In this document: in pieces, positions 21,491 through 38,865 of the stretch
How the letters are laid out: each line of letters begins with the position of its first letter
Numbering within the stretch: the stretch's first letter is position 1
Source: Klenkia terrae
GTDB lineage: Bacteria > Actinomycetota > Actinomycetes > Mycobacteriales > Geodermatophilaceae
Assembly (NCBI RefSeq): GCF_900491935.1
Contig: NZ_UEXK01000004.1
Span: 3,224,128-3,263,848 of the forward strand
Direction of reading: 5' to 3'
DNA: 39,721 nt
Translations under genes and position numbers: made by a program
The notes under the pieces: model-generated
What the model saw: the letters and a program-made list of their open reading frames with translations, nothing else
The model's database searches: none
Told to the model about the DNA's origin: nothing

Positions 21491-22486
21491 ATGCGCATCC
21501 TGGTCACCGGCGGCGCCGGCTTCATCGGCTCCCACTACGTCCGGACCATGCTCTCCGGGGGTTACCCCGGGTACGAGGACGCCGAGGTCACCGTCTTCGA
21601 CAAGCTCACCTACGCCGGGAACCTGGCCAACCTCGCCCCGGTCGCCGACAACCCGCGCTACCGGTTCGTCCAGGGCGACATCTGCGTGCCGGCCGACCTG
21701 GACGCGGCCCTGCCCGGTCACGACGTCGTCGTCAACTTCGCCGCCGAGTCCCACGTCGACCGGTCGATCACCGGCGCCGCGGAGTTCGTGCTGACCAACG
21801 TGCTCGGCGCCCAGCAGGTCTTCGAGGCCTCGCTGCGGCACGGCGTCGGCCGGGTCGTGCACGTCTCGACCGACGAGGTGTACGGCTCCATCGACGAGGG
21901 CTCCTGGGTCGAGGACCACATCCTGGAGCCCAACTCGCCCTACTCGGCCGCGAAGGCCGGCAGCGACCTGATCGCCCGGGCCTACGCCAAGACCTACGGG
22001 CTCAACATCTCGATCACCCGCTGCAGCAACAACTACGGGCCGTACCACTTCCCGGAGAAGGTCATCCCGCTGTTCGTGACCAACCTGCTCGACGGGCAGA
22101 AGGTCCCGCTCTACGGCGAGGGCGCCAACGTCCGGGACTGGCTGTTCGTCGACGACCACTGCCGGGGGATCCAACTGGTCGTGGAGAAGGGCCAGCCCGG
22201 GGAGTACTACAACATCGGTGGCGGTCGGGAGCTGTCCAACCGTGAGCTCACGGAGAAGCTGCTGGAGGCGACCGGTCGGGACTGGAGCTTCGTCCAGGAG
22301 ATCGTCGACCCGCGTGGCGGCGGGCACGACCTGCGCTACTCGGTCGACTACTCCAAGACCGGCGCGCTGGGCTACGCCCCCCGCATGACGTTCGAGGACG
22401 GCCTCGCGCTCACCGTGCAGTGGTACCGGGACAACCGGTCGTGGTGGGAGCCGCTGAAGGCCTCGGCCGCGACGGCGCGCTCGTGA
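21491..22486 (+). CDS. rmlB: dTDP-glucose 4,6-dehydratase
   Basis: A 331-residue short-chain dehydrogenase/reductase that converts dTDP-glucose to dTDP-4-keto-6-deoxyglucose, second step to dTDP-L-rhamnose. It has the NAD-binding TGGAGFIGS at 6–14, the active-site STDEVYG at 126–132, YSAAK at 151–155 (Tyr151, Lys155), and CSNNYGPYHFPEK and NVRDWLFVDDHC in the substrate domain. ATG at 21491 follows GAAGGA. The stop overlaps rmlD by four bases. rmlA and rmlC are not in this window. Confidence 0.96.
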   Translation: MRILVTGGAGFIGSHYVRTMLSGGYPGYEDAEVTVFDKLTYAGNLANLAPVADNPRYRFVQGDICVPADLDAALPGHDVVVNFAAESHVDRSITGAAEFVLTNVLGAQQVFEASLRHGVGRVVHVSTDEVYGSIDEGSWVEDHILEPNSPYSAAKAGSDLIARAYAKTYGLNISITRCSNNYGPYHFPEKVIPLFVTNLLDGQKVPLYGEGANVRDWLFVDDHCRGIQLVVEKGQPGEYYNIGGGRELSNRELTEKLLEATGRDWSFVQEIVDPRGGGHDLRYSVDYSKTGALGYAPRMTFEDGLALTVQWYRDNRSWWEPLKASAATARS

Positions 22487-23367
22487 GAACCGCCTGGTTG
22501 GTGACCGGCGCCCGGGGCCAGCTCGGGCACGACCTGCTGGACGTCCTGTCGAACCGGACCGGCGACGCCGTCACCGCCGTCGGCCGGCAGGAGATGGACC
22601 TGACGGACGAGTCGTCGGTCAGGTCCGTGGTCCGCGCGTGGATCGCCTCGTCTGCGGACGTGGACCGGCGGGTCCTCGTCAACGCGGCGGCCTACACCGC
22701 GGTCGACGCCGCGGAGGCCGACGAGGAGACCGCCCTGGTGGTCAACGGTCGGGCGCCCGGCTGGATGGCCCAGGAGCTCGACGGGCGCGGCCGCCTGGTT
22801 CACGTGTCGACCGACTACGTCTTCGGCGGCGACGCCGACATCCCCTACCCGGTGGATGCGCCTGTGGCCCCCCGGTCGGCCTACGGGCGGACGAAGGCGG
22901 CGGGGGAGCGTGCCGTCCAGGAGGTGGACGGCGACTCGTCGATCGTCCGGACGGCGTGGGTCTACGGCCGGCACGGTGGCAACTTCGTGCGGACGATGAC
23001 CAACCTGCAGGCGCAGCGCGAGACGATCTCCGTGGTGGATGACCAGGTCGGCTCGCCGACCTGGTCGGCGGACCTGGCCGCAGGCCTGGTCGGGCTGGGT
23101 GTGGCCGAGGGGCCGGTCGCTCCGGTCCTGCACTACACGAACACCGGCGCAGTCAGTTGGCACGGCTTGGCCCGGGCCGTCTTCGAGGAGCTCGGAGCCG
23201 ATCCCGCACGAGTCTTGAGGACGTCGTCGGCGGACTTCGTCCGTCCCGCGCCGCGCCCGGCGTACTCCGTGCTGGACGGGTCCGACTGGGACGCTGCGGG
23301 CCTGCCGGAACGGCAGGACTGGCGGACCGCCCTCGCCTGCGCCATGTCGGTGGGCTTCAAGGACTGA
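22483..23367 (+). CDS. rmlD: dTDP-4-dehydrorhamnose reductase
   Basis: A 294-residue reductase for the last step of dTDP-L-rhamnose synthesis. It shows VTGARGQLGHDL near 7–18, NAAAYTAVDAAE, the catalytic STDYVFGG and YGRTKAAGE (Tyr-x3-Lys), and a DDQVGSPTW substrate loop. GTG at 22483 overlaps the rmlB stop (GTGA), so the pair is coupled. No RmlC domain is fused to it. The 160 bases after it, before the amidase, contain only that gene's leader. Confidence 0.95.
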   Translation: MRTAWLVTGARGQLGHDLLDVLSNRTGDAVTAVGRQEMDLTDESSVRSVVRAWIASSADVDRRVLVNAAAYTAVDAAEADEETALVVNGRAPGWMAQELDGRGRLVHVSTDYVFGGDADIPYPVDAPVAPRSAYGRTKAAGERAVQEVDGDSSIVRTAWVYGRHGGNFVRTMTNLQAQRETISVVDDQVGSPTWSADLAAGLVGLGVAEGPVAPVLHYTNTGAVSWHGLARAVFEELGADPARVLRTSSADFVRPAPRPAYSVLDGSDWDAAGLPERQDWRTALACAMSVGFKD

Positions 23368-26385: not shown

Positions 26386-26744
26386 GTGTCCCAAGCTAAT
26401 GCCCGCACGACCCCGCTGGGCGGGCTGCTGATCGTGCATCGGGCCGCCTCGGGGTGCCGTTGGCGCACATCGCGGTGGCGATGGGTGTCTCCCGCGAGTG
26501 CGTGCGAGTCTGAGCGCCCAGCTAGGCACCAAGCAGAAGTTCATCCGCCCGCGCTGCCCCTGGCGGAACGGGAAGGTCGAACGACTCGACCGCACCGTGC
26601 CACCGAATGGGCCCGCGACAGCCCTGGACCAGCAACGATGCCCGCACCTCCGCCCGTGGCGGCCTGCTCGAGCACTTCAACACTCAGCGCCGCCACTCGG
26701 CACTCGGAGGCACGCCACCGATCAGTCGACTGGCACCAACGTGA
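26386..26744 (+). pseudogene. Degraded IS481-family transposase
   Basis: The left piece begins GTG at 26386 and reads MSQANARTTPLGGLLIVHR, then after a frameshift the LAHIAVAMGVSREC-type helix-turn-helix of IS481 transposases. The middle, including the catalytic domain with both aspartates, is missing. The right piece reads LGTKQKFIRPRCPWRNGKVE (carrying the family's catalytic Glu). After another shift it reads RQPWTSNDART, LLEHFNTQRRHSALGGTPP and SRLAPT, to a TGA at 26742–26744. It cannot make a working transposase. It lies in the 679-base stretch between the amidase and the glycan locus; apart from this remnant and hairpins I see nothing else coding there. Confidence 0.85.
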
Positions 26745-26783
26745 TGACTCGGTACATCCAGCACCGGTCGCGGCGGGACCGAC

Positions 26784-26822
26784 GGGTGCCGCGGGGGCAG
26801 CACGTCGGCCCCCGCGGCACCC
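26784..26822. terminator. Strong GC hairpin, probable terminator
   Basis: A perfect 15-bp stem (26784–26798 with 26808–26822) with a nine-base loop. No T-tract follows. A second, weaker stem CGCGGG/CCCGCG lies at 26855–26860 and 26870–26875. Both are upstream of the DUF2142 gene and could end transcription coming from the amidase or the IS remnant. Confidence 0.6.
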
Positions 26823-26960
26823 ATTGGACCGAGGACGACGGGACGGCGGTGCGCCGCGGGTGGGCGCCCCCCGCGTGAGAGGGTGGTCCGGCCCGGAGTG
26901 GCCGAGCGTGCCCGTTCCGGCTGCCGCCCGGTGTCCAGCAGCCGACATCCAGGAGTTCCC

Positions 26961-28577
26961 GTGCGTGGCCGTGTGATGCCCTTGTCCGGACGGCTGCGGT
27001 GGCTCGTCCTCTTCGTCGCCTTGTCGGCGTTGGGCGGTGTTTGGGCCGTGGCCACCCCGCTCTACGGGGTGCCTGACGAACCCGCGCACGCCGTCTACTC
27101 GGCCGCAGCCGTCCGGGGTGAATTGTTCGAGCCGGGGGACGGCAACCGGGTCGAAGTCCGGGTCCCGGCCGACTTCGCGGCCGCCGGCGCCGTCCCGGTC
27201 TGTTACGCCTTCCAACCTGAGGTCCCGGCAGGGTGCGCCGCTGCCTACCCCGACGTCGACGGGGAGGCATCAGTCGTGACGACGGCGGGGCGGTACCCAC
27301 CGGCTTACTACCTCTACGCAGGGTTGGCCACGTTCGTCGACAGCGGCGCCCAGACCGTCTACCTGATGCGACTGCTGACGGCGGTCCTCGTCGGTGCGCT
27401 CCTCGCCTCGGCTACCTGTTCGGTCCTCGATCGGCGGCGCGCCCCCTGGACGAGCCTGGGATTGGCCCTGGCCGGCACCCCGATGCTCTTCTTCTTCGCT
27501 GGGGCGGTGAACCCGCAGGCCCCGGAGATTGCAGCTGCGGTCCTGCTGTGGACGTCGGGGGCCGCCCTGTTGGTGACGCTGCGGGCCGACCCTGGGCGGC
27601 AGTTGCGCCTGCGCGACCCCCTGGTCCGACGGGTAGTGGTGGGTGCGGCGGTCCTCAGCCTCGCCCGACCCCTGTCGTTGCTGTGGCTTGCTCTCGTCGT
27701 GGCGTGCTTGCTCGGTGCGTTCGCGACGGCTCCCGCCCTCCGTGCGATCGTTACGTCGCGCGCCGGCGTCGTCGGCGCGGTGGTCGTGGGGATCACCAGC
27801 CTGACGACCCTTGGTTGGGTGCTGGTCCGGGACTCGCTGATCCAGCAAGACGTACCCATCTTCGCCGACCTGCCCTTCTCGCAGGCAGTCATCACTGCCG
27901 TAGAGAAGGCCGACAACGAGTACCGCGAGATGATCGGGGTGTTCGGGTGGCGTGACAATGCGGCTCCTGGGATCGCCTACGTGGTCTTCACCCTGCTGCT
28001 CGGCTCCCTGCTGCTGGTCGGCTCGTCGGGTGCCCGGCGTCGGCAGCTCGCGGTGCTCGCCGCACTGGCGGGTGTGGTGCTCCTGCTACCCGGGGTCTTG
28101 GACCTCAGCGAGTACGAGTCCAGCGCCTTCGCCTGGCAGGGCCGCTACACCCTGCCCATCGCGGTCGGAGTCCCCCTCCTGCTCGGTTTCTTCGCAGACG
28201 AGAGGGGTCAGCGTCGGGTCGACCTGGGGGTGACAGTTGACCACTCGATGCGTCGGGTGGCCCTCGCGTTCGGCGCCGGTCTCGTCGTCGTCCACGTCGC
28301 TGCGTTCGTGGGGGCTCTCAACCGGAACGTGCACGGGGTCAGTGGGTGGTGGTTCGTGTCGCAGCCCGGTTGGGTCCCGCCCCTGCCGTCCTGGCTCCTG
28401 GTCGCGGGCTGCGTTGTCGTGTGCTGCTCCTTGGCAGCCGGGCTGGTCGGAGTGGTCGGATCACAGGCCGATCGCCCGGCTGGGGGGCGCTCGGTACGAC
28501 CGCCGGAGCAGACAGGCCTCGGAACCGGTGCGGCTCCCGTGGACCGGGTCGATCAGTCGGAGGCCACCCGGCGATAG
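26961..28577 (+). CDS. DUF2142 family polytopic membrane protein
   Basis: A 538-residue integral membrane protein with roughly ten to twelve hydrophobic helices. The first helix is followed by the characteristic PLYGVPDEPAHAVYSAAAVRGE segment of DUF2142 proteins, and a large outside loop precedes TTAGRYPPAYYLYAG. Such proteins are found in surface-polysaccharide loci and resemble GT-C glycosyltransferases in layout; a polyprenyl-sugar-dependent transferase role is inference. The GTG at 26961 is chosen because AGGAG sits five bases upstream; the ATG at 26976 is the alternative. Its last 25 bases overlap the end of the convergent GT4 gene. Confidence 0.85.
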   Translation: MRGRVMPLSGRLRWLVLFVALSALGGVWAVATPLYGVPDEPAHAVYSAAAVRGELFEPGDGNRVEVRVPADFAAAGAVPVCYAFQPEVPAGCAAAYPDVDGEASVVTTAGRYPPAYYLYAGLATFVDSGAQTVYLMRLLTAVLVGALLASATCSVLDRRRAPWTSLGLALAGTPMLFFFAGAVNPQAPEIAAAVLLWTSGAALLVTLRADPGRQLRLRDPLVRRVVVGAAVLSLARPLSLLWLALVVACLLGAFATAPALRAIVTSRAGVVGAVVVGITSLTTLGWVLVRDSLIQQDVPIFADLPFSQAVITAVEKADNEYREMIGVFGWRDNAAPGIAYVVFTLLLGSLLLVGSSGARRRQLAVLAALAGVVLLLPGVLDLSEYESSAFAWQGRYTLPIAVGVPLLLGFFADERGQRRVDLGVTVDHSMRRVALAFGAGLVVVHVAAFVGALNRNVHGVSGWWFVSQPGWVPPLPSWLLVAGCVVVCCSLAAGLVGVVGSQADRPAGGRSVRPPEQTGLGTGAAPVDRVDQSEATRR

Positions 28578-29677
28578 GCCTCGAGCGTGGCGGCACCGGT
28601 CACCCGCCACGTGTACGCCGCGGCGTGCCGACGGCGTGCGTCTGCCACCGGGGCGTCGGGAACTGCAGCGCCCGCCGCGGCGACGGCGGCCGCCAGGGCG
28701 TCCCGGTCGCCGGTCGGTACGAACCGAGCCGCCCCCGGGGTGTCGCCCAGCACCTCCCTGGTGACGGGCAGGTCGCTCGCGACGACCGGGACCCCGCAGG
28801 CGAAGGCCTCCAACGGCGGCAGTCCGAACCCCTCGTAGGAGGTGGGGAAGAGCAAGGCGGTGGACCCGGCGACGATCGACTGCAGGTCACGGTCGGGCCG
28901 GTGCCCCGTAAAGACGACCTTCTCGGCCGGGATACCGCGGGTGTCGAGCGCGGGCCCCCACCCGGGAGGTCCCACCAGGACGAGCGCAGGGACCTCGGGG
29001 TCGCTGCTGAGGACCTGCCGGTAGGCCGACAGCAACAGCGGCAGGTTCTTCCTGGGTTCAAGGTTGCCGACCACGACGAACCAGCGCTCGGGGAGGCCCA
29101 GCCGGGCCCGGGCGGCAGCATCTGGGGGCCGGGCGCGAGCCCAGCTCGGGCCTACCCCCAGGGGAGTGACAACCACCCGGTCTGCGGGGAGCCGGTACTC
29201 CTCGACGACCTCGTCGGCCACCGCCCTGCTGGGGGTGAGGACGACGCCAGCTCGCCGGATGCTGCGGGGCACCAGCTCCCGGTACGCACGCGCGGCGGCG
29301 GTCACGGTGGCCGGGGACCGCAGGAAGGACAGGTCGTGCACGGTGACCACCCCGGCGGCACGGCCAGGAGGCGGCAGGACGAAATTGGTTCCGTGCACCA
29401 CGTTGGTCCGCCCGGTGAGCCGGTCGAACGCCGGGTGCTCCGACCTGGCCCAGGCCCTCTGCAGGAGACGAGCGGGCATCGGGGCGCCCACGCCGGACAC
29501 CCCGTCCGGGAGCAGGTCCGCCAGTCGTGCCTGGCCCCGTACGGTGACCACCGCGGCGGCCAGGCGGAGGTCGGGTGCGTCCGCCGCGGACGCCAGGTCG
29601 TGCAGCAGGGCATCGACGTACCGCCCTACGCCTGTCCTGGGTCCCAGCAGAGGGGTCGCGTCGAGGGTCACGCGCAT
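28553..29677 (-). CDS. Glycosyltransferase family 4 (GT-B)
   Basis: A 374-residue retaining GT-B enzyme. The N-terminal half starts MRVTLDATPLLGPRTGVGRY, the usual glycine loop, and has VVHGTNFVLPP and VTVHDLSFL. The C-terminal half has FVVVGNLEPRKNLPLLLSAY and the nucleotide-sugar EX7E motif in YEGFGLPPLEAF (Glu282 and Glu290). It resembles mannosyl- or rhamnosyltransferases of O-antigen clusters; the sugar is not predictable. The ATG at 29677 was chosen by the family start. It is divergent from the large GT gene (131-base gap) and its stop overlaps the DUF2142 gene by 25 bases. Confidence 0.9.
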   Translation of the reverse strand: MRVTLDATPLLGPRTGVGRYVDALLHDLASAADAPDLRLAAAVVTVRGQARLADLLPDGVSGVGAPMPARLLQRAWARSEHPAFDRLTGRTNVVHGTNFVLPPPGRAAGVVTVHDLSFLRSPATVTAAARAYRELVPRSIRRAGVVLTPSRAVADEVVEEYRLPADRVVVTPLGVGPSWARARPPDAAARARLGLPERWFVVVGNLEPRKNLPLLLSAYRQVLSSDPEVPALVLVGPPGWGPALDTRGIPAEKVVFTGHRPDRDLQSIVAGSTALLFPTSYEGFGLPPLEAFACGVPVVASDLPVTREVLGDTPGAARFVPTGDRDALAAAVAAAGAAVPDAPVADARRRHAAAYTWRVTGAATLEAYRRVASD

Positions 29678-29808
29678 GGGCACCCCTGGGCCACAGACCC
29701 GTGCCGCATCGGACGGTACGTTGGGTCGCCGGGCGTCGGGCGCCCCCTCTGCGTGGGCCCGTCCGACCGACCGCTCATATGCCGTCCACCCCACAGGAGT
29801 CGTTCATC

Positions 29809-32800
29809 GTGACCTCCCCCACCGAAGGCAGTACCGAGGGTACGGAGTCCGCCACCCCGGTCCCGGGGGAGGGCGTCGACGCGACCCCGCCCCAGGCGAC
29901 TGCTAACGGCTTGCCCGAGCCCGCTCCGGTGGCACCGCCAGGCCCCCGGCCACGGCTTCGTGCCCGGGTGCGGGAGACCGTGAAGCAACGTCTGCCCGAG
30001 GGCAGTCGACAGCGGCTGGCCGCGAAGGCGGGCCTGTCGACCTACCGCGAGCTGCTCAACACCGCTTCCACGATCCGGTCGCTGTGGACTGCACCCGGCC
30101 TTGCTGAGCCTTCTGCGCCAACCTACCGAACCTGGTTGAAGGACCACGAGGTGACTGGGGAGCAGTCCGACGCCCAGCGCGAGTCCTCTGCTGCCGCAGC
30201 CTGCCCCGTCACGGTGCAGGTGGTGATTCTCCCGGGCCAGGGGACCGTCGACAGCACTCTTGACTCGCTGCGCGCTCAGAGCTGGGCTCACTGGACGGCG
30301 GTCGTCTGTCGGCCGGACCTCAGCGCGGCGTCGACCGCCCCCGTCTCGGGGCAGGTCGTGGATGCCGGGGGCGTGGTCGTCGACAGCGTCAACACCCACG
30401 TGCAGCACGGCTCAGCTGACCTGGTGGTCCTGCTGGAGGCCGGGGACCGTCTGCGCCCGGACTGCCTGTACCAGGTGGCCGCGGCAGCGCACCGTGACCC
30501 CCTGGTCGACATCGTCACCTGGGACGACGACGTGCTCACGGAGGGCCGGCCGGCCCAGCCGCTCTTCCGTCCGTCCTGGTCTCCCGAGATGCTGCTCGGC
30601 GCACCGTACGTAGGCCGGGCCTTCGCCATCCGCCGGGCGCGCTTCCTCGCCGCCGGCGGCCTGCGCGTCGAGGCCGGACAGGCTCTGCACTGGGACCTCC
30701 TCCTCCGTTCGGACTGCGAGGCCGAGCGCGTCACCCGTGTCACCCGGGTCCTCAGCAGCGTGCCGGCCCGGCCGGTCCTGCCCGCCCTCGACGCCGTGCA
30801 CGCCGTCCAGCAGCACCTGGACCGCAACGGCGTGGCCGCGCGCGCGGAGTCCGCCGGGCCGAGCCGGGTGCGCCTGCGCTGGACCCCGCAGGAGTGGCCC
30901 TCGGTCAGCATCGTCATCCCGACGCGGCACAACCGCCCGATGCTGTCGACCTGTCTGCCGTCGCTGGCGCGGACGGACTACCCCGCTTTCGAGGTGGTCA
31001 TCGTGGACAACGGCGGCCAGACCCCGGAGAACGAGGCGTGGTACGCCGCCCGCGAGGACGGCTTCCCGACCGAGGTGCTGTGGTGGCACGAGCAGCCCTT
31101 CAACTACTCGGCCGTCAACAACGCCGCGGTCCGCACCAGCAACGGGGAGGTGCTGGTCTTCCTCAACGACGACACCGAGGTGCTCGACCCGCTCTGGCTG
31201 CAGGAGCTCGTCGGGTGGGCCACCCAGCCGGACGTCGGCGTCGCGGGGCTCCAGCTCACCGGTCCCGACGGCGCCATCCAGCACGCCGGTGTGGTCCTGG
31301 GCATGGGCGGGTTCGCCGACCACGTCTTCGAGGGCATGGCCCCGGGCAGCGACTCCATCTACGGGCCTACCGACTGGTACCGCAACGTGCTGGCTGTCAC
31401 GGGGGCCTGCCTCGCCGTGCGGCGCGAGGTCTTCGACCACGCCGGCGGTTTCGACGAGCGGTTCGTGCTGTGCGGCTCCGACGTCGCCCTCGGCCTGGAC
31501 ACCCACCTGGACGGCAAGCGCAACGTCTGCTCCCCCTACGCGGGGATCCGGCACCTGGAGTCGGCCACCCGGGGGACCACGGTGCCCACCGAGGACTTCT
31601 TCGCCAGCTACTGGAAGTACAACACCTGGCTGTTCGGGGGCGACCCGTACTGGAGCCCCAGCCTGTCGCTGAGCAGCCGGGAGCCCCAGCTGCGCAGCCG
31701 CTTCGAGCCCAGTCCCGGGCAGCGGTTGGCCGGGCCGCTGGGCAGGGACTTCACCGCCTTCCGGCAGCGCAACGACGCCGCCGAGTCGCGGATGCTCGCT
31801 GACATGTGCCGGGCTCTGCCCTCCGACGTCCGGGCGGTGGAGGACCTGCACGCGCAGAACGCCGAGCCGTTCCAGGTGAGGACCGTCAACTGGTTCATCC
31901 CGGACATCGACAGCCCGTTCTACGGCGGGATCAACTCCGCGCTGCGGATCGCGGACGAGCTCGCGCGCAACCACGGCGTCGAGAACCGGTTCGTCGTCTG
32001 GGGCAGTCCGCCCGACCACTTCGTGCGGTCGGCGCTGGCCGCGGCCTTCCCTTCCCTGGCCGACTCCACCATCGTCTTCTTCGACGGATCGCAGGGCGAC
32101 CTGGCCAAGGTGCCCAAGGCCGACGTGGGCATCGCCACCCTGTGGGTGACGGCGTACGCGCTGGCACACGCGCCGAACATGCGTCGCAAGTTCTACCTGA
32201 TCCAGGACTTCGAGCCGATGTTCTACCCGGCGAGCACGCTGTACGCGCTGGCAGAGGAGACCTACAAGCTCGGCCTGTACGGGTTGTGCAACACCGACAA
32301 CCTGCGGCAGATCTACGCCGGGGACTACGGCGGCCGCGGCATGAGCTTCGCCCCCGCCGTCGACGACACCGTCTTCCATGCCCGGTGGCGGCACCAGCGG
32401 ACCCCGGGGTCGCCCGTCACCGTCTTCGTCTACGCCCGGCCGGGGCACTGGCGGAACTGCTGGGAGATGGCATCCCTCGCCCTCGAGGAGCTCAAGCGCC
32501 GGATGGGCGACGGGGTCCGGATCGTGACCGCCGGTGCCTGGGCCGCGGGCCAAGGGGCCGATGAGGACATCAAGCCCCTGGGGCTGCTCCCCTACCGCGC
32601 CACCGGTGAGCTGTACCGGAACAGCGACGTCGGGCTGGCGCTCACGGTGTCCAAGCACCCGTCGTACCTGCCGTTGGAGTTGATGGCCTGCGGCGTGCCG
32701 GTCGTGGCCTTCGACAACCCGTGGGGGCACTGGATCCTCGAGCACGAGGAGAACAGCCTGCTGGCCAAGCGGACCGCGGACGACCTGGCCGACCAGCTGG

Positions 32801-32949
32801 AGCGTCTGTGCCGGGACCAGGAGCTGCGGGAGCGGCTGTCGACCCAGGGGCTGCAGGACATCGCGGCTCGGCACGGCAAGTGGGACCCGGCACTCGCCGG
32901 GATCTACGACTACCTCTGCGACCCGGAGGGCAAGGGCGCGCGCGGATGA
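29809..32949 (+). CDS. Tri-modular glycosyltransferase: GT2 + GT2 + WsaF-like GT4
   Basis: A 1046-residue cytoplasmic protein. After a Pro/Glu/Thr tail and a basic helix region (1–130) comes a first GT2-like module (about 135–345). Where such modules usually show a DHDD-type metal site it reads LLEAGDRLRPD (205–216), so it may be weak or inactive. The second GT2 module (about 363–620) has VSIVIPTRHNRP, FNYSAVNNAAV and FLNDDTEVLD (Asp454, Asp455). The third (694–1040) starts NWFIPDIDSPFYGGI, as in the rhamnosyltransferase WsaF, and has SYLPLELMACGVPVVAFDNP with Glu957. The GTG at 29809 has AGGAG nine bases upstream; an in-frame ATG at 29779 lacks one. It probably builds a rhamnose-containing chain using dTDP-rhamnose. 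Confidence 0.88.
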   Translation: MTSPTEGSTEGTESATPVPGEGVDATPPQATANGLPEPAPVAPPGPRPRLRARVRETVKQRLPEGSRQRLAAKAGLSTYRELLNTASTIRSLWTAPGLAEPSAPTYRTWLKDHEVTGEQSDAQRESSAAAACPVTVQVVILPGQGTVDSTLDSLRAQSWAHWTAVVCRPDLSAASTAPVSGQVVDAGGVVVDSVNTHVQHGSADLVVLLEAGDRLRPDCLYQVAAAAHRDPLVDIVTWDDDVLTEGRPAQPLFRPSWSPEMLLGAPYVGRAFAIRRARFLAAGGLRVEAGQALHWDLLLRSDCEAERVTRVTRVLSSVPARPVLPALDAVHAVQQHLDRNGVAARAESAGPSRVRLRWTPQEWPSVSIVIPTRHNRPMLSTCLPSLARTDYPAFEVVIVDNGGQTPENEAWYAAREDGFPTEVLWWHEQPFNYSAVNNAAVRTSNGEVLVFLNDDTEVLDPLWLQELVGWATQPDVGVAGLQLTGPDGAIQHAGVVLGMGGFADHVFEGMAPGSDSIYGPTDWYRNVLAVTGACLAVRREVFDHAGGFDERFVLCGSDVALGLDTHLDGKRNVCSPYAGIRHLESATRGTTVPTEDFFASYWKYNTWLFGGDPYWSPSLSLSSREPQLRSRFEPSPGQRLAGPLGRDFTAFRQRNDAAESRMLADMCRALPSDVRAVEDLHAQNAEPFQVRTVNWFIPDIDSPFYGGINSALRIADELARNHGVENRFVVWGSPPDHFVRSALAAAFPSLADSTIVFFDGSQGDLAKVPKADVGIATLWVTAYALAHAPNMRRKFYLIQDFEPMFYPASTLYALAEETYKLGLYGLCNTDNLRQIYAGDYGGRGMSFAPAVDDTVFHARWRHQRTPGSPVTVFVYARPGHWRNCWEMASLALEELKRRMGDGVRIVTAGAWAAGQGADEDIKPLGLLPYRATGELYRNSDVGLALTVSKHPSYLPLELMACGVPVVAFDNPWGHWILEHEENSLLAKRTADDLADQLERLCRDQELRERLSTQGLQDIAARHGKWDPALAGIYDYLCDPEGKGARG

Positions 32950-34328
32950 CCCGCCTCGGTGGCACTGGAGTCCTGGTCGTCACCGCGGAGTCGCTCGGGG
33001 AGCGGATGGCCGGGCCGGCCATCCGCTCCCTGGAGCTCGCTCGTGCGCTCCACCGCGACGGCCGTCCCGGACCGGTCACCGTGGCCTCGCTCGGGGACGC
33101 CCGGCTCCTCGACCCGGGCGTGCAGGTCGTCGCCGTCACGGATGTCCCGCACCTCCGGCGGCTCGTGGACGGGGTCGGATCGGTCGTCGTGCAGGGTGAT
33201 GTGCTGGGGCTCCACCCTTGGCTGGTCGAGACCGACGTCCCGGTGGTCGTGGACGTCTACGACCCCTTCCACCTCGAACAGCTGGAACGGACCCGGGGCG
33301 AGGTGCCGGCGCACCGTTGGGCCGTGGTCCGGGACTGCGTCACCTCCCTCAACACCCAGCTCGCCCGGGCCGATTTCGTGCTCTGCGCGTCCGGGCGGCA
33401 GCGGGCGCTGTGGATCGGCCACCTCGCCGCCCTCGGCCGGGTCAATCCGGTGGTCCACGACCTCGGGGCTGACCTCGCTGGCCTCGTCGCGGTGGTCCCC
33501 TTCGGGACCCCGGGTCGGTCGCCAGCACCCCGCGACCGGACGGTCCTCACCCGCGCGTTCCCCGCGGTGGGCCCGGACGACGTGGTGTGCGTCTGGGGTG
33601 GCGGGGTCTACCCGTGGCTCGACCCGGAGACGCTCGTGCGCGCCGTGGCCGCCGCACTGGCCGACGTGCCGACCCTGCGGCTGGTCTTCCTGGGCACGAG
33701 GCATCCGGTCCAGGGGGTCGAGTCGGCCGCCGGAGACGCTCGGCGTACGGCCGAGGAGCTCGGTGTCCTCGACACGGCGGTCTTCTTCCACGACGGCTGG
33801 GTGCCCTACGAGGAGCGGGACGTCTGGCTGCGTGCGGCCGACATCGCCGTCAGCACCCACCACGACCACCTGGAGACCGAATTCGCCTTCCGCACCCGAG
33901 TGCTGGACTACCTCTGGTGCGGCCTGCCCGTGGTGACGACGTCCGGCGACGAGCTGGCCGAGGTCGTCGTCGCCCACGGGGCCGGGAAGAGTGTCCCCGC
34001 CGAGGACGTCGGCGCCCTCCGCGAGGTCCTGGTCGGGCTCGCGTCCTCGGCGGAGGCCCGGTCCGTGGCCGGTGTCGCAGCCGCCGGACTCGCCGAGACC
34101 TTCGCCTGGGACCGGGTCGCCGCGCCCCTGGCTGACTTCTGCGCGCGACCCCGCCGGGCACCCGACCTCGTGCTGGGGCCGGTGCAGCGCGCCCAGCTGG
34201 GTCTGCGCTCGCCCAGTCGACGGGGATCTGCGGGCGCGCGGCTGCGCGCTGCCCTCGACGAGGGCGGCGCTGGCCTGGTGGTCCGCCGCGTCGCCGACCG
34301 GGTGCGCCGGCAGCTCCGGCGGGGCTGA
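32946..34328 (+). CDS. Glycosyltransferase (GT-B fold, GT4-like)
   Basis: A 460-residue protein whose ATG overlaps the upstream GT stop (ATGA), so the two are co-translated. The N-terminal half has LVVTAESLGERMAGPAIRSLELARAL, the loop typical of GT4 proteins, and VDVYDPFHLEQLERTRG. The C-terminal half has VCVWGGGVYPWLDPETLVRA, HDGWVPYEERDVWLRAADI, and RVLDYLWCGLPVVTTSGDEL for donor binding. A basic C-terminal tail (about 405–460) may contact the membrane. The sugar donor cannot be predicted. Confidence 0.88.
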   Translation: MTRLGGTGVLVVTAESLGERMAGPAIRSLELARALHRDGRPGPVTVASLGDARLLDPGVQVVAVTDVPHLRRLVDGVGSVVVQGDVLGLHPWLVETDVPVVVDVYDPFHLEQLERTRGEVPAHRWAVVRDCVTSLNTQLARADFVLCASGRQRALWIGHLAALGRVNPVVHDLGADLAGLVAVVPFGTPGRSPAPRDRTVLTRAFPAVGPDDVVCVWGGGVYPWLDPETLVRAVAAALADVPTLRLVFLGTRHPVQGVESAAGDARRTAEELGVLDTAVFFHDGWVPYEERDVWLRAADIAVSTHHDHLETEFAFRTRVLDYLWCGLPVVTTSGDELAEVVVAHGAGKSVPAEDVGALREVLVGLASSAEARSVAGVAAAGLAETFAWDRVAAPLADFCARPRRAPDLVLGPVQRAQLGLRSPSRRGSAGARLRAALDEGGAGLVVRRVADRVRRQLRRG

Positions 34329-34330
34329 CC

Positions 34331-34382
34331 CGGCGGATCAGCCCGCGGGCTAGTCGGTCCGACGACGGGCGCTGATCCGCCG
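34331..34382. terminator. Inverted repeat across the convergent junction, probable bidirectional terminator
   Basis: CGGCGGATCAGC at 34331–34342 is the exact reverse complement of 34371–34382, with 28 bases between that contain an inner CCCGCGGG palindrome. The structure begins two bases after the plus-strand GT stop and runs 33 bases into the 3' end of the minus-strand methyltransferase gene. Confidence 0.5.
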
Positions 34383-35519
34383 GATGACCCCGGCCGCTGC
34401 CGAGGCGCCCGGGAGCCTGCGGAGCGTGTCGGTGTCCGCGCGAGCCGCCGCCAGGTCGGACTCCAGCTGCGCCTCACGCGCCTCGGCCGACCGGCGGTCC
34501 TCCTCGCGCTGGCGCAGCAAGTCGTCCCGCTGGGCCACGGCGGCGTCGCGGCGGGCGGTGAGCTCGATGACGTGCTGGGCGGAGAAGCGGGGCAGCAGCA
34601 GGAACTCGGCGTGCCCGACCTGCTCGGCGAACGGGGCGAAGCGCTGCTGCTTCTTCACCACGACCACGGAGTCGTAGAAGGCGATGCTGTCCACCGTGTC
34701 GGTCCACACCCGGTCGACGGTGGTGTCGTGGTGGTAGCCGTTGACGGCGTCGATCTTCGCCTTGCACCACTCGATGAACGTCCCCGCGCGGCCCACCCCA
34801 CCCTGGTAGCTGTCCCAGTAGGAGGTGTGGCAGTCCTCGGTGAGGAGGACCCCGCCGTCGGCGATCAGCGGGAAGAGCGTCTCAGCAGTCACGATCTGCT
34901 GCTCCATCGTGTGCCCGCCGTCGTCGATGACGATGTCGAAGGGGCCGTGCCGCTCGGCCAGCGACCGGAGGAACTCCGGGTCCGTCTGGTCACCGATCTC
35001 GACCAGGTGGTCGGGTGCGGACACCTCCCGGGCGCGCTCGTCGATGTCTGCGCCGACGAGGATGGCGTCCGGCCCGAAGAACCAGCGCCACATGTCCAGG
35101 GACCCGCCGCGGTACACGCCGATCTCCAGGATGCGCACGGGGCGCCCGCGGAAGCGGGAGAAGTGCTCGGTGTAGATGGGGAAGTAGTGCACCCACTTGT
35201 CCAGCACGCGGCCGGTGCGCTTGCTGGAGAAGAAACCGAACAACGGGTCCGACCGCAGCGCCGGGAGTCCATCGCCCAGGTAGAACGCCGCGCGGTAGCA
35301 CTCATTGGCGAGGAAGTCGAGACCGGTGGCCTCCCGAACAGCGTCACCGAGCGCGCGAGCCATGCCCGCCGGGTCGGCTGCGCTGTCCAGCGCCGTCCGG
35401 AGGCGCGCCCGCTCCGCCTGGTCGAGCACCGCGCTCTCGCTGATGGCCCTCTCGACGTCGTCGTCGGACCGCCGGGCCAGCGCCAGCAGGATGGCCTTGA
35501 GGGTTTCTTCGTTCAGCAC
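34350..35519 (-). CDS. SAM-dependent methyltransferase (MycE/CmcI-like) with C-terminal coiled coil
   Basis: A 389-residue protein. A helical N-terminal region (1–70) is followed by a class I methyltransferase core. Motif I is LEIGVYRGGS at 131–140, an acidic loop GADID at 156–160, DDGGHT at 199–204 and TEDCHTSYWDSY at 227–238; the DDGGHT pattern is that of metal-dependent sugar O-methyltransferases such as MycE. Residues about 318–368 are a charged heptad-like helix (RDDLLRQREEDRR and on), a likely coiled coil, then a basic tail. The GTG at 35519 has AGGAGA just upstream. It follows wzt by 29 bases in the same operon. Capping of the exported glycan by methylation is inferred. Confidence 0.85.
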   Translation of the reverse strand: MLNEETLKAILLALARRSDDDVERAISESAVLDQAERARLRTALDSAADPAGMARALGDAVREATGLDFLANECYRAAFYLGDGLPALRSDPLFGFFSSKRTGRVLDKWVHYFPIYTEHFSRFRGRPVRILEIGVYRGGSLDMWRWFFGPDAILVGADIDERAREVSAPDHLVEIGDQTDPEFLRSLAERHGPFDIVIDDGGHTMEQQIVTAETLFPLIADGGVLLTEDCHTSYWDSYQGGVGRAGTFIEWCKAKIDAVNGYHHDTTVDRVWTDTVDSIAFYDSVVVVKKQQRFAPFAEQVGHAEFLLLPRFSAQHVIELTARRDAAVAQRDDLLRQREEDRRSAEAREAQLESDLAAARADTDTLRRLPGASAAAGVIRRISARRRTD

Positions 35520-35548
35520 GTGCGTCTCCTGGGGCGGGGGGCGGGGGG

Positions 35549-36865
35549 TCAGAGGCCGGCGCTGGGTGCGGGGTCGTGACGCCACGTTCCGGGCATCCGC
35601 ACGAGCCCCGGCTCGGTGACGACGTCGTCGGCGCGGACCTTGAGCACGAAAGCGCGGTCCACGTAGTCGTACATGTGCCCCTTGTCGACGGCGGCCACGC
35701 TGAGCAGGTACTCACCGGGCTGCAGGGGGAGGGTGTCCAAGGAGTAGTCGACGCTGCCCCGTCCGGCCGGCACCGGGAAGGCGTCGGGCCCGTAGCCGGA
35801 GTTGGGGCCGGCGGCCTGGACCCCGGACTCGTGCACGAAAGCCAGTCCGAAGGTGACGTCGGACAGGTCGCTGGTGGCCTCGTAGTCGATCCGCACCGTG
35901 CAGGCCCGGCCGGTGCTGAGGAACTTCCGCTCCCCGCCGTCGGCGTCCAGGTAGCGCACCCCGGTCACCCGGACCTCGCCCGAGCCCCGTCGCGCCGTCT
36001 TGCCGACGATGTCGTCGTCGGGCGGTGTGCTGGTACCCGGTGTCGACGAGCTCGCGGCCGAGGCGGTGTCGGCCGCTGCCTCGCGTTCGTTGACAGTGGA
36101 CAGGTACTGGTCGACGATCTCGCGCGCCGGGCCGACGGCGCGCAACGTGCCGCCGTCGAGCCAGGCGGCCTCGTCGCACAGGTCGGCGACGAGGGACAGC
36201 GAGTGGGTGACCAGCACGATGGTCACGCCCTTGCGCCGGAGCTCGTACAGGTGGTCGAAGCACCGTCGCTGGAAGGCCTCGTCCCCGACGGCGATGACCT
36301 CGTCGATGATGAGGATCTCCGGATCGAGGTTGACCGCGATGGCGAAGCCGAGCCGGACGTACATCCCCGAGCTGTACACCTTCACGGGGGTGTCGATGAA
36401 TTCCCCGAGCCCGCTGAACTCGATGATCTCTTCCATGGCGGCGTCGATCTGGCGACGCGTCATGCCCAGGATCGAGCCGTTGAGGTAGATGTTGTCGCGC
36501 CCGGACATCTCCGGGTGGAAGCCCGCCCCCAGCTCCAGCATCGCCGAGACCCGGCCGCTGGAGGTGATCGTCCCCGACGTGGGCCGGTGGATGCCGGCCA
36601 CCAGCTTGAGCAGCGTCGACTTGCCGGAGCCGTTGTGCCCGATCAGCCCGAACGTCCGGCCTGCGGGGATGTCCAGGGACACGCCCTTGAGCGCCCAGAA
36701 GTCGTCGTGCCTGCTGATTCGCTGGCGGGCGCTGAAGAGCTCCTTGACGTTGGTCTTCTTGTCGTTGTGCAGGCGGAACTTCTTGGTCACGTCCCGCACT
36801 GCGATCGCCGTGACCGCGGGGGAGGGGGAGACGTCGGGGGCGGCCCCGGTGGGGAAGACGCTCAC
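35549..36865 (-). CDS. wzt: Polysaccharide ABC exporter ATPase with C-terminal glycan-binding domain
   Basis: A 438-residue Wzt. The nucleotide-binding domain (about 20–255) has Walker A GHNGSGKST at 76–84, the YSSGM signature at 164–168 typical of O-antigen and teichoic acid exporters, Walker B LIIDEV at 185–190 and the switch His221. A Ser/Thr/Pro linker (about 262–290) joins a C-terminal beta-sandwich (about 297–425) like Wzt_C, which in O9a-type systems binds the modified non-reducing end of the finished chain. The GTG start overlaps the wzm stop by four bases. Mycobacterial galactan Wzt proteins lack this extension, as far as I know. Confidence 0.93.
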   Translation of the reverse strand: MSVFPTGAAPDVSPSPAVTAIAVRDVTKKFRLHNDKKTNVKELFSARQRISRHDDFWALKGVSLDIPAGRTFGLIGHNGSGKSTLLKLVAGIHRPTSGTITSSGRVSAMLELGAGFHPEMSGRDNIYLNGSILGMTRRQIDAAMEEIIEFSGLGEFIDTPVKVYSSGMYVRLGFAIAVNLDPEILIIDEVIAVGDEAFQRRCFDHLYELRRKGVTIVLVTHSLSLVADLCDEAAWLDGGTLRAVGPAREIVDQYLSTVNEREAAADTASAASSSTPGTSTPPDDDIVGKTARRGSGEVRVTGVRYLDADGGERKFLSTGRACTVRIDYEATSDLSDVTFGLAFVHESGVQAAGPNSGYGPDAFPVPAGRGSVDYSLDTLPLQPGEYLLSVAAVDKGHMYDYVDRAFVLKVRADDVVTEPGLVRMPGTWRHDPAPSAGL

Positions 36866-37674
36866 AGTTCCTCACTCACGTCGGCGGACTTGCGTTGGAA
36901 GACCGTCCACCCCAGTGCCAGGACGCCCAGGCTGACGACGGTGAGGTAGGCCAGTCGCCCCAGCCCCGGGAACCGGAGGTGCCAGAGCACGTCGCGGAAG
37001 GCCTCGACGAAGGAGGTGATCGGGTTGTACTCGTACACCTGCAGCCAGGGATGGGCCGCGTACATGTCTGTGACCAGGGTGATCGGGTAGATGATCGGCG
37101 AGGCGTAGAAGAGCAGCCCCAGGACCACGGTCACGATGTAGTTGACGTCGCGGAACCGGGCGTTGGCGATGCTGAGCAACAGACCCAGCCCCAGGGCGAA
37201 TGCCGACAGGAGCAGCAGCAGGACGGGCACCATGAGGATCGTCCAGCTGAGGTTGAGCACCACCAGGTAGACCACGAACAGCAGACCGAACTCGATCGCC
37301 GTCTGGTTCAGCACCGCGAGTGCGGACCCGAAGACCGGCGCGTACGGCGGGAAGTGGATCTTGCGGAGCAACGGCCCCGCGCCGACCAGCGCACCCATCC
37401 CGCTGGTCGTGACCGCGTAGAAGAAGTTCCAGACGACCAGGGCCGTGAACAGGTAGACCGGGAAGCTGGTCAGCGAGCCGTTTCCCGCCGTAGGCGTCGG
37501 GAACCTCAGGATGAAACCGAAGACCAGGCTGTAGGTGGCCAGTGTGGCGAGCGGGTTGATCAAGGCCCAGGCGCCGCCGAGCAAGCTGCCCTTGTACTTG
37601 CCCTTGATCTCCCGGTTGGCGAAGTTTCCGATGAGGCCCCGGTACTGCCACACCTGGCGCAGGGACTGCGTCAT
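36862..37674 (-). CDS. wzm: Polysaccharide ABC exporter permease
   Basis: A 270-residue ABC-2 type permease with six hydrophobic helices. It begins with the cytoplasmic NREIKGKYKGSLLGGAWALINP gate helix region characteristic of Wzm/TagG proteins and has YNPITSFVEAFRDVLW near the end. With Wzt it moves an undecaprenyl-linked polysaccharide across the membrane. The ATG at 37674 was chosen by family start, with GGTGGAG upstream. It is followed by wzt (4-base overlap) and the methyltransferase; 183 bases separate it from the GT2 gene upstream, enough for its own promoter. Confidence 0.93.
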   Translation of the reverse strand: MTQSLRQVWQYRGLIGNFANREIKGKYKGSLLGGAWALINPLATLATYSLVFGFILRFPTPTAGNGSLTSFPVYLFTALVVWNFFYAVTTSGMGALVGAGPLLRKIHFPPYAPVFGSALAVLNQTAIEFGLLFVVYLVVLNLSWTILMVPVLLLLLSAFALGLGLLLSIANARFRDVNYIVTVVLGLLFYASPIIYPITLVTDMYAAHPWLQVYEYNPITSFVEAFRDVLWHLRFPGLGRLAYLTVVSLGVLALGWTVFQRKSADVSEEL

Positions 37675-37857
37675 CCTGAGTGCTCCACCTGTCTGTTCGA
37701 GGGGTCGGCCCCGGCGACGTCGGCGACTCTGCCGGTCGTCGTGCTCACGACACGTCCTGGACAGGTCTCGGCGGCTCGACCATCCTCGCCACGCTAGCAC
37801 CGGAGTCCGACCGGGCCGTCGAACCGGCGCACCGCTGCAGGGCGCCGGTGGTCGGGG

Positions 37858-38820
37858 TCATCGCCATCGGCGCGGGTCCACGGACCGGCCGGTGGGACGC
37901 CCGCGCACGCAACGGGGCAGCCCTCCGACTGCGTCCCGGAGCACCGACCAGCGCACGCCCGGTCGCAGGTTCCACGGCCGGGCACCGTCGACGGCCGGCG
38001 CCGGGCGCACGACCAGGGACAGGGTCGTGACCACGAAGCGCACGGTGACGCCGACGGCAACGGGGACCGGCGCATGGCGCCACAGCATCCAGAGCCGGTT
38101 GCGCTCCGTCACGTGGGCGAACAGGCGGGAACGGGGGTCCGTGCTTGCGGCGTGCTGGTGCACGACGACGGCGGTGGGCTCGAACCAGACCGTCCACCCG
38201 GCCTCCCGGAGCCGCCACGCGAGCTCGGTGTCCTCGTAGTAGAGGAAGTACCGAGGGTCGAAACCGCCCACCGCGCGGACGGCGTGGGTGCGCAGCAGGG
38301 CCGCCCCGCCGCTGAACCCGAAGACCTCCGCGGGTTCAGCGACGCTCGCGGGGTCGGCACCCGCGGCCCGGTCGGCTCCGTACCAGCTGTCGAGCACGAT
38401 CACACCCGCGTTGTTGACCACCGGTGGTTGGGTGCCGGCCAGCAGCAGCAGGGACGTGATCGCTGCAGCGTCGGGGCGGCGCTGCGCGGCCGCCAGGAGC
38501 GCGGCCAGCCAGTCCGGCTCGGCGACGGCGTCGTTGTTCAGCAGTGCTGCGAAGCCGGTGCGCACCTGGTCCAGGCCGGCCTGGACGCCGCCAGCGAAAC
38601 CGGTGTTCTCGGTGCAGCGGACCACCTGGACGTCGTCCCTGGCGGCCAGCAGCTCGACCGTGCCGTCGGTCGAGGCGTTGTCGACCACGATGACCCGGTG
38701 TCCGACCGTCTGGCGCCGCAGGGAATCCAGGCATGCGGTCAGCAGGTGCGCCCCCTGCCACGTCACGACGACGACGGTGACGTCGGCCGGTGGGACGGGG
38801 GCGCTCGCGTCGGCAGTCAT
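37858..38820 (-). CDS. Glycosyltransferase family 2 (WbbL-like)
   Basis: A 320-residue inverting GT-A enzyme. It has VTVVVVTWQGAHLL at 14–27, VIVVDNASTDGT at 43–54, ENTGFAGG at 71–78, the metal-binding LNNDA at 94–98, and FGFSGGAALLRTHAVRAVGGFDPRYFLYYEDTEL in the acceptor part, followed by one hydrophobic C-terminal helix. This pattern is that of WbbL-type rhamnosyltransferases; in mycobacteria wbbL sits beside rmlD. Rhamnose as donor is inference. The ATG at 38820 is preceded by a TACCGT -10-like box and no ribosome site. Confidence 0.9.
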   Translation of the reverse strand: MTADASAPVPPADVTVVVVTWQGAHLLTACLDSLRRQTVGHRVIVVDNASTDGTVELLAARDDVQVVRCTENTGFAGGVQAGLDQVRTGFAALLNNDAVAEPDWLAALLAAAQRRPDAAAITSLLLLAGTQPPVVNNAGVIVLDSWYGADRAAGADPASVAEPAEVFGFSGGAALLRTHAVRAVGGFDPRYFLYYEDTELAWRLREAGWTVWFEPTAVVVHQHAASTDPRSRLFAHVTERNRLWMLWRHAPVPVAVGVTVRFVVTTLSLVVRPAPAVDGARPWNLRPGVRWSVLRDAVGGLPRCVRGRPTGRSVDPRRWR

Positions 38821-38865
38821 CGCTGCTGGACGGTAGTCACCCCGGGGTCTCCGTAGGCTCGCCGG
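38821..38865. promoter_or_regulatory. Compact divergent promoter region between two glycosyltransferase genes
   Basis: In 45 bases there is a minus-strand TACCGT (complement of 38830–38835) nine bases from the GT2 ATG and a plus-strand TAGGCT (38854–38859) six bases from the GT4 ATG. Both fit leaderless starts. A CCCCGGGG palindrome-like stretch lies between them. Confidence 0.4.

Follow-up and report, generated by a model that had tools for sequence, protein, structure and literature searches.

A stretch of 39,721 nucleotides from Klenkia terrae (assembly GCF_900491935.1, contig NZ_UEXK01000004.1, positions 3,224,128 to 3,263,848), referred to here in its whole length as the window, carries a methyltransferase (MT) gene next to wzt, the gene for the ATPase of a polysaccharide exporter of the ATP-binding cassette (ABC) type. 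The subject of this work is the MT-Wzt pair and the surface polysaccharide that it may serve. The features of the locus are as follows.

34350..35519, minus strand: long-form MycE-like O-methyltransferase, 389 residues (Pfam, Protein Data Bank (PDB) by sequence, family alignments)
35202..35519, minus strand: N-terminal region of the MT, residues 1–106, conserved in the long form (long-form family alignment)
34830..35129, minus strand: S-adenosylmethionine (SAM)/metal catalytic core of the MT, residues 131–230 (Pfam, PDB alignment)
34413..34565, minus strand: predicted coiled coil of the MT, residues 319–369 (COILS-type score, P > 0.5)
35549..36865, minus strand: Wzt, ATPase of a polysaccharide ABC exporter, 438 residues (Pfam ABC_tran and Wzt_C)
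35594..35998, minus strand: Wzt_C glycan-binding domain, Wzt residues 290–424 (Pfam, 85.3 bits, cut-off 30.4)
36862..37800, minus strand: Wzm permease (Pfam ABC2_membrane; NCBIfam galactan_ABC_perm far under its cut-off)
29779..32949 (start approximate), plus strand: putative polymerase, GT2 fused to a WsaF-type GT4 (WsaF_N, WsaF_C, Glycos_transf_2)
32946..34328 (start approximate), plus strand: GT4 glycosyltransferase (Pfam)
28553..29794, minus strand: GT4 glycosyltransferase (Pfam)
37858..38829 (start approximate), minus strand: GT2 glycosyltransferase (Pfam)
22420..23367, plus strand: RmlD-type dTDP-4-dehydrorhamnose reductase (Pfam RmlD_sub_bind, 284 bits)

The MT gene lies downstream of wzt on the same strand with a gap of 29 bp, and wzm and wzt overlap. 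This agrees with the initial annotation, made from the letters alone, which had described an MT 29 bases downstream of a Wzt with a Wzt_C-type domain, surrounded by a Wzm and chain-building glycosyltransferases; the latter are the GT2-WsaF fusion, two GT4 proteins and one GT2 protein. The start codon of the MT is a GTG (VLNEETLKA...) preceded by AGGAGA, and it was taken in place of a longer open reading frame (ORF) reaching 35585, which is a purely mechanical call. PDB sequence matches for the window Wzt_C are weak (5hno, E 0.0034; 8dky, 0.012; 6o14, 0.014). A genome search revealed a single MT match and a single Wzt_C in the source genome. The gene pair, its domains and the coil prediction are established by the sequence itself.

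The MT is matched by the Pfam family Methyltransf_24 with 35.4 bits (cut-off 26.3) over residues 131–230. Its closest PDB chains by sequence are MycE (3ssm, E 1.7e-24) and demethylmacrocin O-methyltransferase (8ia9, E 3.9e-22), so the earlier description of the enzyme as MycE-like holds. In a PDB search with a 23-row MT profile, run up to E 10, these two were far ahead and CmcI came third, and no WbdD chain was found among the best 60 of the 64 matches. On these matches, a WbdD homologue by sequence was rejected, as had been judged by eye in the initial annotation, and the Pfam scan revealed no kinase domain in the MT, also as expected there. Residues D200, H203, E228 and D229 are invariant across the 23 rows of the long-form family alignment, and they align with positions 295, 298, 323 and 324 of the MycE construct, which we take to be the metal and base residues D275, H278, E303 and D304 in native numbering. 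Both PDB relatives presumably act on the 2-hydroxyl of a 6-deoxyhexose, and the predicted chemistry of the window MT is O-methylation of a deoxysugar. The enzymes share the catalytic core with the aligned Asp/His and Glu-Asp residues; the matches span the core only, and the N-terminal region and the C-terminal coil of the window MT fall outside. The context also differs, being polysaccharide export in the window and macrolide sugar O-methylation for MycE and demethylmacrocin O-methyltransferase. Methylation of mycinamicin is described as mixed base-catalysed and Mg-dependent (PMC11408123).

A start codon giving 106–108 N-terminal residues is present in all members with a complete N terminus, a length that is partly by construction because the starts were picked as nearest to 107. 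For MT residues 1–101 there was no PDB match under E 0.7, and a PDB relative for the N-terminal region was discarded on that ground.

A pattern scan of species genomes gave 37 loci, of which 22 encode the long form (L078–L099) and 15 the catalytic domain only (L100–L114). The scan could reach only genomes in which either of two exact peptide patterns occurs (70 stretches, giving 37 relatives), and its counts are not those of a full census. Adding the window and L059 brings the number of distinct long-form MTs to 24. In this total L058, L060, L061 and L062 do not count separately, being the same genomes as L079, L083, L085 and L090. Leaving aside L098, whose contig begins inside the gene, the MT adjoins wzt in 21 of 23 long-form loci, downstream of it in 19 and upstream in 2 (L087 and L088), and wzt lies within 5.1 kb in all 23. 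The non-adjacent cases are L059, at 3.8 kb from wzt, and L089, at 5.0 kb on the opposite strand. The wzt-MT gap was measured in 13 loci and falls between -14 and +33 bp in 12 of them, the other being L094 with +143 bp. Frequent occurrence of the MT away from Wzt_C, which the initial annotation had named as evidence against its proposal, is thus not seen for the long form. Pfam Wzt_C was detected in all seven further Wzt proteins scanned, including three from Cellulomonas. Near the catalytic-only MTs, a Wzt-like gene (at least 38% identity) was found in none of the 15 stretches of flanking DNA, which extend 8 kb on both sides for 9 of them; L107 and L108 contain weakly similar ABC ATPases (25–28% identity).

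The MT query has a match at E 1e-10 in 25 of the order's 249 genomes, with near full query coverage in 6. Wzt_C is present in 70 genomes, including all 6 with a near-full-length MT; it is directly upstream of the MT in 5 of these, and the sixth (G031) has both genes on one strand with 3.8 kb between them. In a phylum sample of 396 genomes, searched at E 1e-30 with at most four candidates scored per listed genome, the window gave the only full-length match. The seven sampled genomes of the window's genus contain no MT match, and four of them have a Wzt_C. Recurrence of the pair in other genomes indicates that the window neighbourhood is not a matter of chance. The initial annotation had called the system possibly actinobacterial and had suggested family searches for co-occurrence of the pair across that group; the pair does recur, but it is not confined to actinobacteria, as four long-form loci (L084, L086, L091 and L092) are on contigs titled Chloroflexi metagenome-assembled genome, from three such genomes with the binning taken as labelled. 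A literature search, mostly outside subscription journals, found no title on such an actinobacterial MT-Wzt pair.

The C-terminal tail of the MT was scored with a re-implementation of the COILS scheme, for which a GCN4 control gave P near 1. The initial annotation had placed a coil at residues 318–368 and had named its absence as a ground for rejecting the proposal; the score gives a coil at 319–369. Only 2 of 200 shuffled tails match the score of the real tail. With heavier weighting of the a and d heptad positions, the top score over 28 residues of the tail is 1.51; to either side of about residue 340, the highest-scoring 21-residue windows are in different registers. Nineteen of the 24 long-form members were scored (L059, L079, L083, L085 and L090 were left out), and a tail coil is predicted in 18. 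The exception is L082, in which no coil is predicted and the best P is 0.15; in L080, 28 of 200 shuffles reach the score of the real tail. The COILS method can err, since it also marks residues 986–1015 of the window polymerase, a segment that is mostly within the WsaF_C match (881–1007) and was taken as a false positive. The tail from residue 302 onward measures 88 residues in the window MT and 76–141 residues in 17 members that end at a stop codon (L078, L080–L082, L084, L086–L089, L091–L093 and L095–L099). By eye, the C terminus reads SW[RK]xTxP[LI]R in 17 of the 23 complete members (L094, whose contig ends inside the gene, was excluded). A literature search with five spellings of SWRxTxPLR found no paper on this motif.

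Identities to the window Wzm, nucleotide-binding domain (NBD) and Wzt_C were measured for loci in which the MT is linked to wzt and for unlinked loci. For 14 linked loci, the identities are 37–41% for Wzm, 58–69% for the NBD and 42–58% for Wzt_C, versus 31–43%, 52–56% and 22–33%, respectively, for 11 unlinked loci of the same order. The remaining five linked loci (L078–L081 and L059) show 49–82% for Wzt_C and 60–83% for Wzm (four measured). Another seven unlinked loci are near the window exporter, with 47–61% for Wzm (six measured), 69–75% for the NBD and 40–48% for Wzt_C. Among the Wzt_C genomes, 64 lack a full-length MT; the 18 unlinked loci were taken from these non-randomly, 11 by hand and 7 for having the Wzt_C closest to that of the window. 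On a tree of Wzt_C, a single branch (support 59) sets the 20 MT-adjacent rows apart, so that one change suffices, whereas on the Wzm tree 19 MT-adjacent rows need three changes, at least two of which are forced by starred branches. Taken together, these identities and trees make it probable that the Wzt-MT pair was joined to a different Wzm lineage on at least one occasion. Judged from their sequences, MT and Wzt share inheritance in most of the loci seen. R299, R411, E418 and P419 are among the Wzt_C positions at which the 20 linked rows are conserved and the 7 unlinked rows near the window are not.

The loci L078–L081 encode a GT2-WsaF polymerase with 71–82% identity to that of the window, and the Cellulomonas loci show only 29–31%. 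An RgpF-WbsX-type protein is encoded in 13 of the 23 long-form loci other than the window, within the flanking DNA available, and L081 has both kinds of polymerase. The WsaF half of the window polymerase carries HPSYLPLE at residue 960, which is close to the PHPSYPPLE motif proposed as a possible rhamnose signature (PMC3898925), and RgpF is by its Pfam name a rhamnan synthesis family. The WsaF- and RgpF-type proteins, together with rmlD, suggest a rhamnose polymer. In the MT clusters of L085, L093 and L059, RgpF is fused to the WbsX-type glycosyltransferase; in L093, L092 and L099 a separate short gene lies between the MT and the RgpF-WbsX protein (RgpF by Pfam in L093, the one locus scanned).

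Three unlinked loci from the window's order, without a window-type MT (L119, L120 and L123), encode a GT2-WsaF polymerase that is 61% identical to that of the window. Their polymerases carry an extra N-terminal MT followed by a predicted coil, which is missing from the window polymerase, and they adjoin Wzt. The window polymerase aligns with them from its residue 45 (L123) or 50 (L120) onward, and the coils are at residues 237–274 in L123, 357–390 in L120 and 348–379 in L119 (ORF numbering). The fused MT is assigned to Methyltransf_23 with 33.1 bits in L120 (cut-off 27) and with 20.1 bits, under the cut-off, in L123; the MT part of L119, which was outside the Pfam scan, is 64% identical to that of L123. 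A search of the fused MT against the window gave nothing better than E 0.43. Comparison of these relatives with the window points to an MT-plus-coil function that is either fused to the polymerase or supplied by its own gene next to Wzt. Polymerases of one kind would thus be served in some loci by a stand-alone MT and in others by a fused one resembling that of WsaE, one having presumably replaced the other in either direction. In a different arrangement, five Wzt_C clusters without a window-type MT (L068, L069, L070, L072 and L077) have a GT2+GT4 protein directly after wzt (by Pfam in L069 and L072).

We propose that the product of the window genes is a surface rhamnan, or another rhamnose polymer, that depends on the exporter. 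The GT2/WsaF-type transferases would build the chain in the cytoplasm on a lipid carrier. The long-form MT would then methylate a hydroxyl of the last deoxyhexose, by analogy the 2-O position, and the methyl cap would stop chain growth. The Wzt_C domain would read the cap and so license export through Wzm/Wzt, and the coil would join the MT to the membrane or the polymerase and may set a minimum chain length before capping. We put the probability of this scheme, in which Wzt_C recognises a terminal O-methyl cap and the coil serves as spacer or ruler, at roughly 0.6. Capping with recognition by Wzt_C is likely and is supported by the gene linkage; that the coil acts as a length ruler we infer, and consider plausible.

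The window appears to fit the class of ABC exporters with a cap and a terminator, in that a Wzt_C, an exporter-linked MT and a predicted coil were found, and the capping function itself is predicted. WbdD of Escherichia coli carries out a terminal modification and contains a coil and a C-terminal membrane region, and chain length shifts with coil length (PMC11231755, PMC3482155, PMC5082667); in serotype O8 a sugar hydroxyl is methylated without a kinase (PMC3482155). An MT followed by a coiled coil, and a Wzt with a C-terminal glycan-binding domain, are common to the O8/O9a systems and the window. The window MT differs in belonging by sequence to another family, in its shorter coil and in its Gram-positive host, and its substrate would likely be a deoxyhexose instead of mannose. 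The initial annotation had chosen WbdD as the known parallel; the class of design fits, but the closest known design is equally WsaE of Geobacillus, which methylates the terminal rhamnose of a Gram-positive glycan, with recognition by Wzt predicted (PMC2943079). Geobacillus stearothermophilus has Wzm/Wzt export, a WsaF-type rhamnosyltransferase and a 2-O-methylated terminal rhamnose (PMC2943079, PMC3898925), and it resembles the window in its Gram-positive host, its exporter and its WsaF-type transferase. In WsaE the MT is fused to glycosyltransferases, a form resembled by the proteins of L119, L120 and L123, whereas the window MT is a separate gene product with its own coil, encoded beside Wzt. 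No oligosaccharyltransferase was found among the window genes scanned. The Wzt carbohydrate-binding domain of Aquifex aeolicus binds 3-O-methyl-mannose, and rhamnose is said to be consistent with it (PMC9445017). The Aquifex Wzt likewise has a C-terminal glycan-binding domain, of which the sequence similarity to the window Wzt_C is only weak (E 0.012–0.077), and mapping of the Aquifex pocket onto the window domain was dropped because the alignments are too weak.

Several observations weigh against the capping reading. The Wzt_C of G041 (L118) is 48% and that of G050 (L121) 41% identical to the window domain, yet neither genome has an MT match at E 1e-10; L118 has an FkbM-type methyltransferase beside Wzm as well as an AT3-SGNH acyltransferase, and no MT was found among the three proteins scanned in L121. 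The Wzt_C identities of the unlinked loci L119, L120 and L122–L124 (40–43%) are near the lowest linked values (42–44%). Three Cellulomonas loci combine an MT with a divergent Wzt_C (22–29%), and with their rows included the MT label needs three changes on the Wzt_C tree and five on the Wzm tree. The trees are quick ones with long-branch warnings, and the support of 59 for the MT-linked group is weak. The whole Wzt follows the MT, as the NBD identities (58–69% versus 52–56%) indicate, and Wzt_C alone as the co-inherited unit was rejected for this reason. The C-terminal motif is absent from the window MT, as it is from L059, L078, L079, L080 and L081. The C termini are basic, but in 18 of the 19 members their hydrophobic moment is not distinct from that of shuffles; an amphipathic membrane-binding helix is therefore not supported, and what remains is a basic, partly conserved motif. 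The window coil is also short, at about 50 residues.

This shortness, together with the missing coil of L082 and the spread of tail lengths within one family (76–141 residues), would also suit a system in which the MT adds a cap that Wzt_C reads, the coil serving only to form oligomers or to dock the polymerase, and chain length being set by relative rates or elsewhere. We regard such a cap without a ruler as unlikely, though worth keeping in mind, because a coil is predicted in 18 of the 19 members scored and also lies between MT and glycosyltransferase in the fused proteins of L119, L120 and L123, as it does in characterised terminators (PMC11231755). An MT that instead decorates internal or side-branch sugars, with Wzt_C recognising another feature of the polymer, seems improbable. 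The 15 of 15 catalytic-only relatives without a detected Wzt in the flanking DNA indicate that the catalytic domain is not bound to a capping role, and a related Wzt_C occurs in G041 and G050, where the MT is missing; a pure decorator would, however, have no need of exporter matching, and the long form is tied to Wzt by short gaps (12 of 13 between -14 and +33 bp), with Wzt_C similarity mostly tracking the MT. Mere co-travel of the MT and Wzt genes within a single mobile polysaccharide cluster, with no functional link, would account for the patchy distribution of the MT, which is without a match in the seven genomes of the genus although four have a Wzt_C. It is nonetheless very hard to reconcile with partners that change while the pair stays, as when Wzm falls to 37–41% identity or RgpF-WbsX replaces GT2-WsaF.

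Within the capping reading, Wzt may form a portable exporter-terminator unit together with an MT that derives from the MycE type and brings its own coil. Such a unit would have been swapped among the permeases and polymerases of rhamnose-polymer clusters and would be an independent origin of the WbdD design; we consider the odds of this about even. If so, the chemistry of the cap and its recognition would evolve jointly, as a single exchangeable part. The specificity of a Wzt_C might also be predictable from the neighbouring gene. The convergence with WbdD would consist of the independent recruitment of another methyltransferase family and involves no new principle. Detailed knowledge of how chains are terminated and caps recognised comes from the O antigens of Gram-negative bacteria, and the Gram-positive cases among those found are the S-layer glycans of Geobacillus and Paenibacillus (PMC2943079). 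In the literature covered, no description was found of the recruited MT family, of its stand-alone form with a coil in Gram-positive bacteria or of its co-inheritance with Wzt. As a recurrent actinobacterial family with naturally short to long tails, matching Wzt partners and fused-MT relatives, it would make the ruler and cap-recognition ideas testable by part swaps.

Elsewhere in the window, a possible transposase remnant (rve_3, 17.8 bits, under the cut-off) is located at about 26498–26878, between an amidase gene and a gene for a DUF2142 membrane protein. A repeat of about 110 residues (GWAxDPD ... HGF ... VCxYAxN ... GC) occurs in the proteins encoded at 4–627 and, in the C-terminal half, at 23528–26278. 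It has no convincing Pfam name, and one of the window proteins bearing it has an Amidase_2 domain. The repeat is also present in loci with the same exporter type, at 13238–14737 of L059, 782–2878 of L118 and 176–2305 of L121, and the proteins that carry it are possibly secreted, wall-bound or glycan-linked surface proteins.

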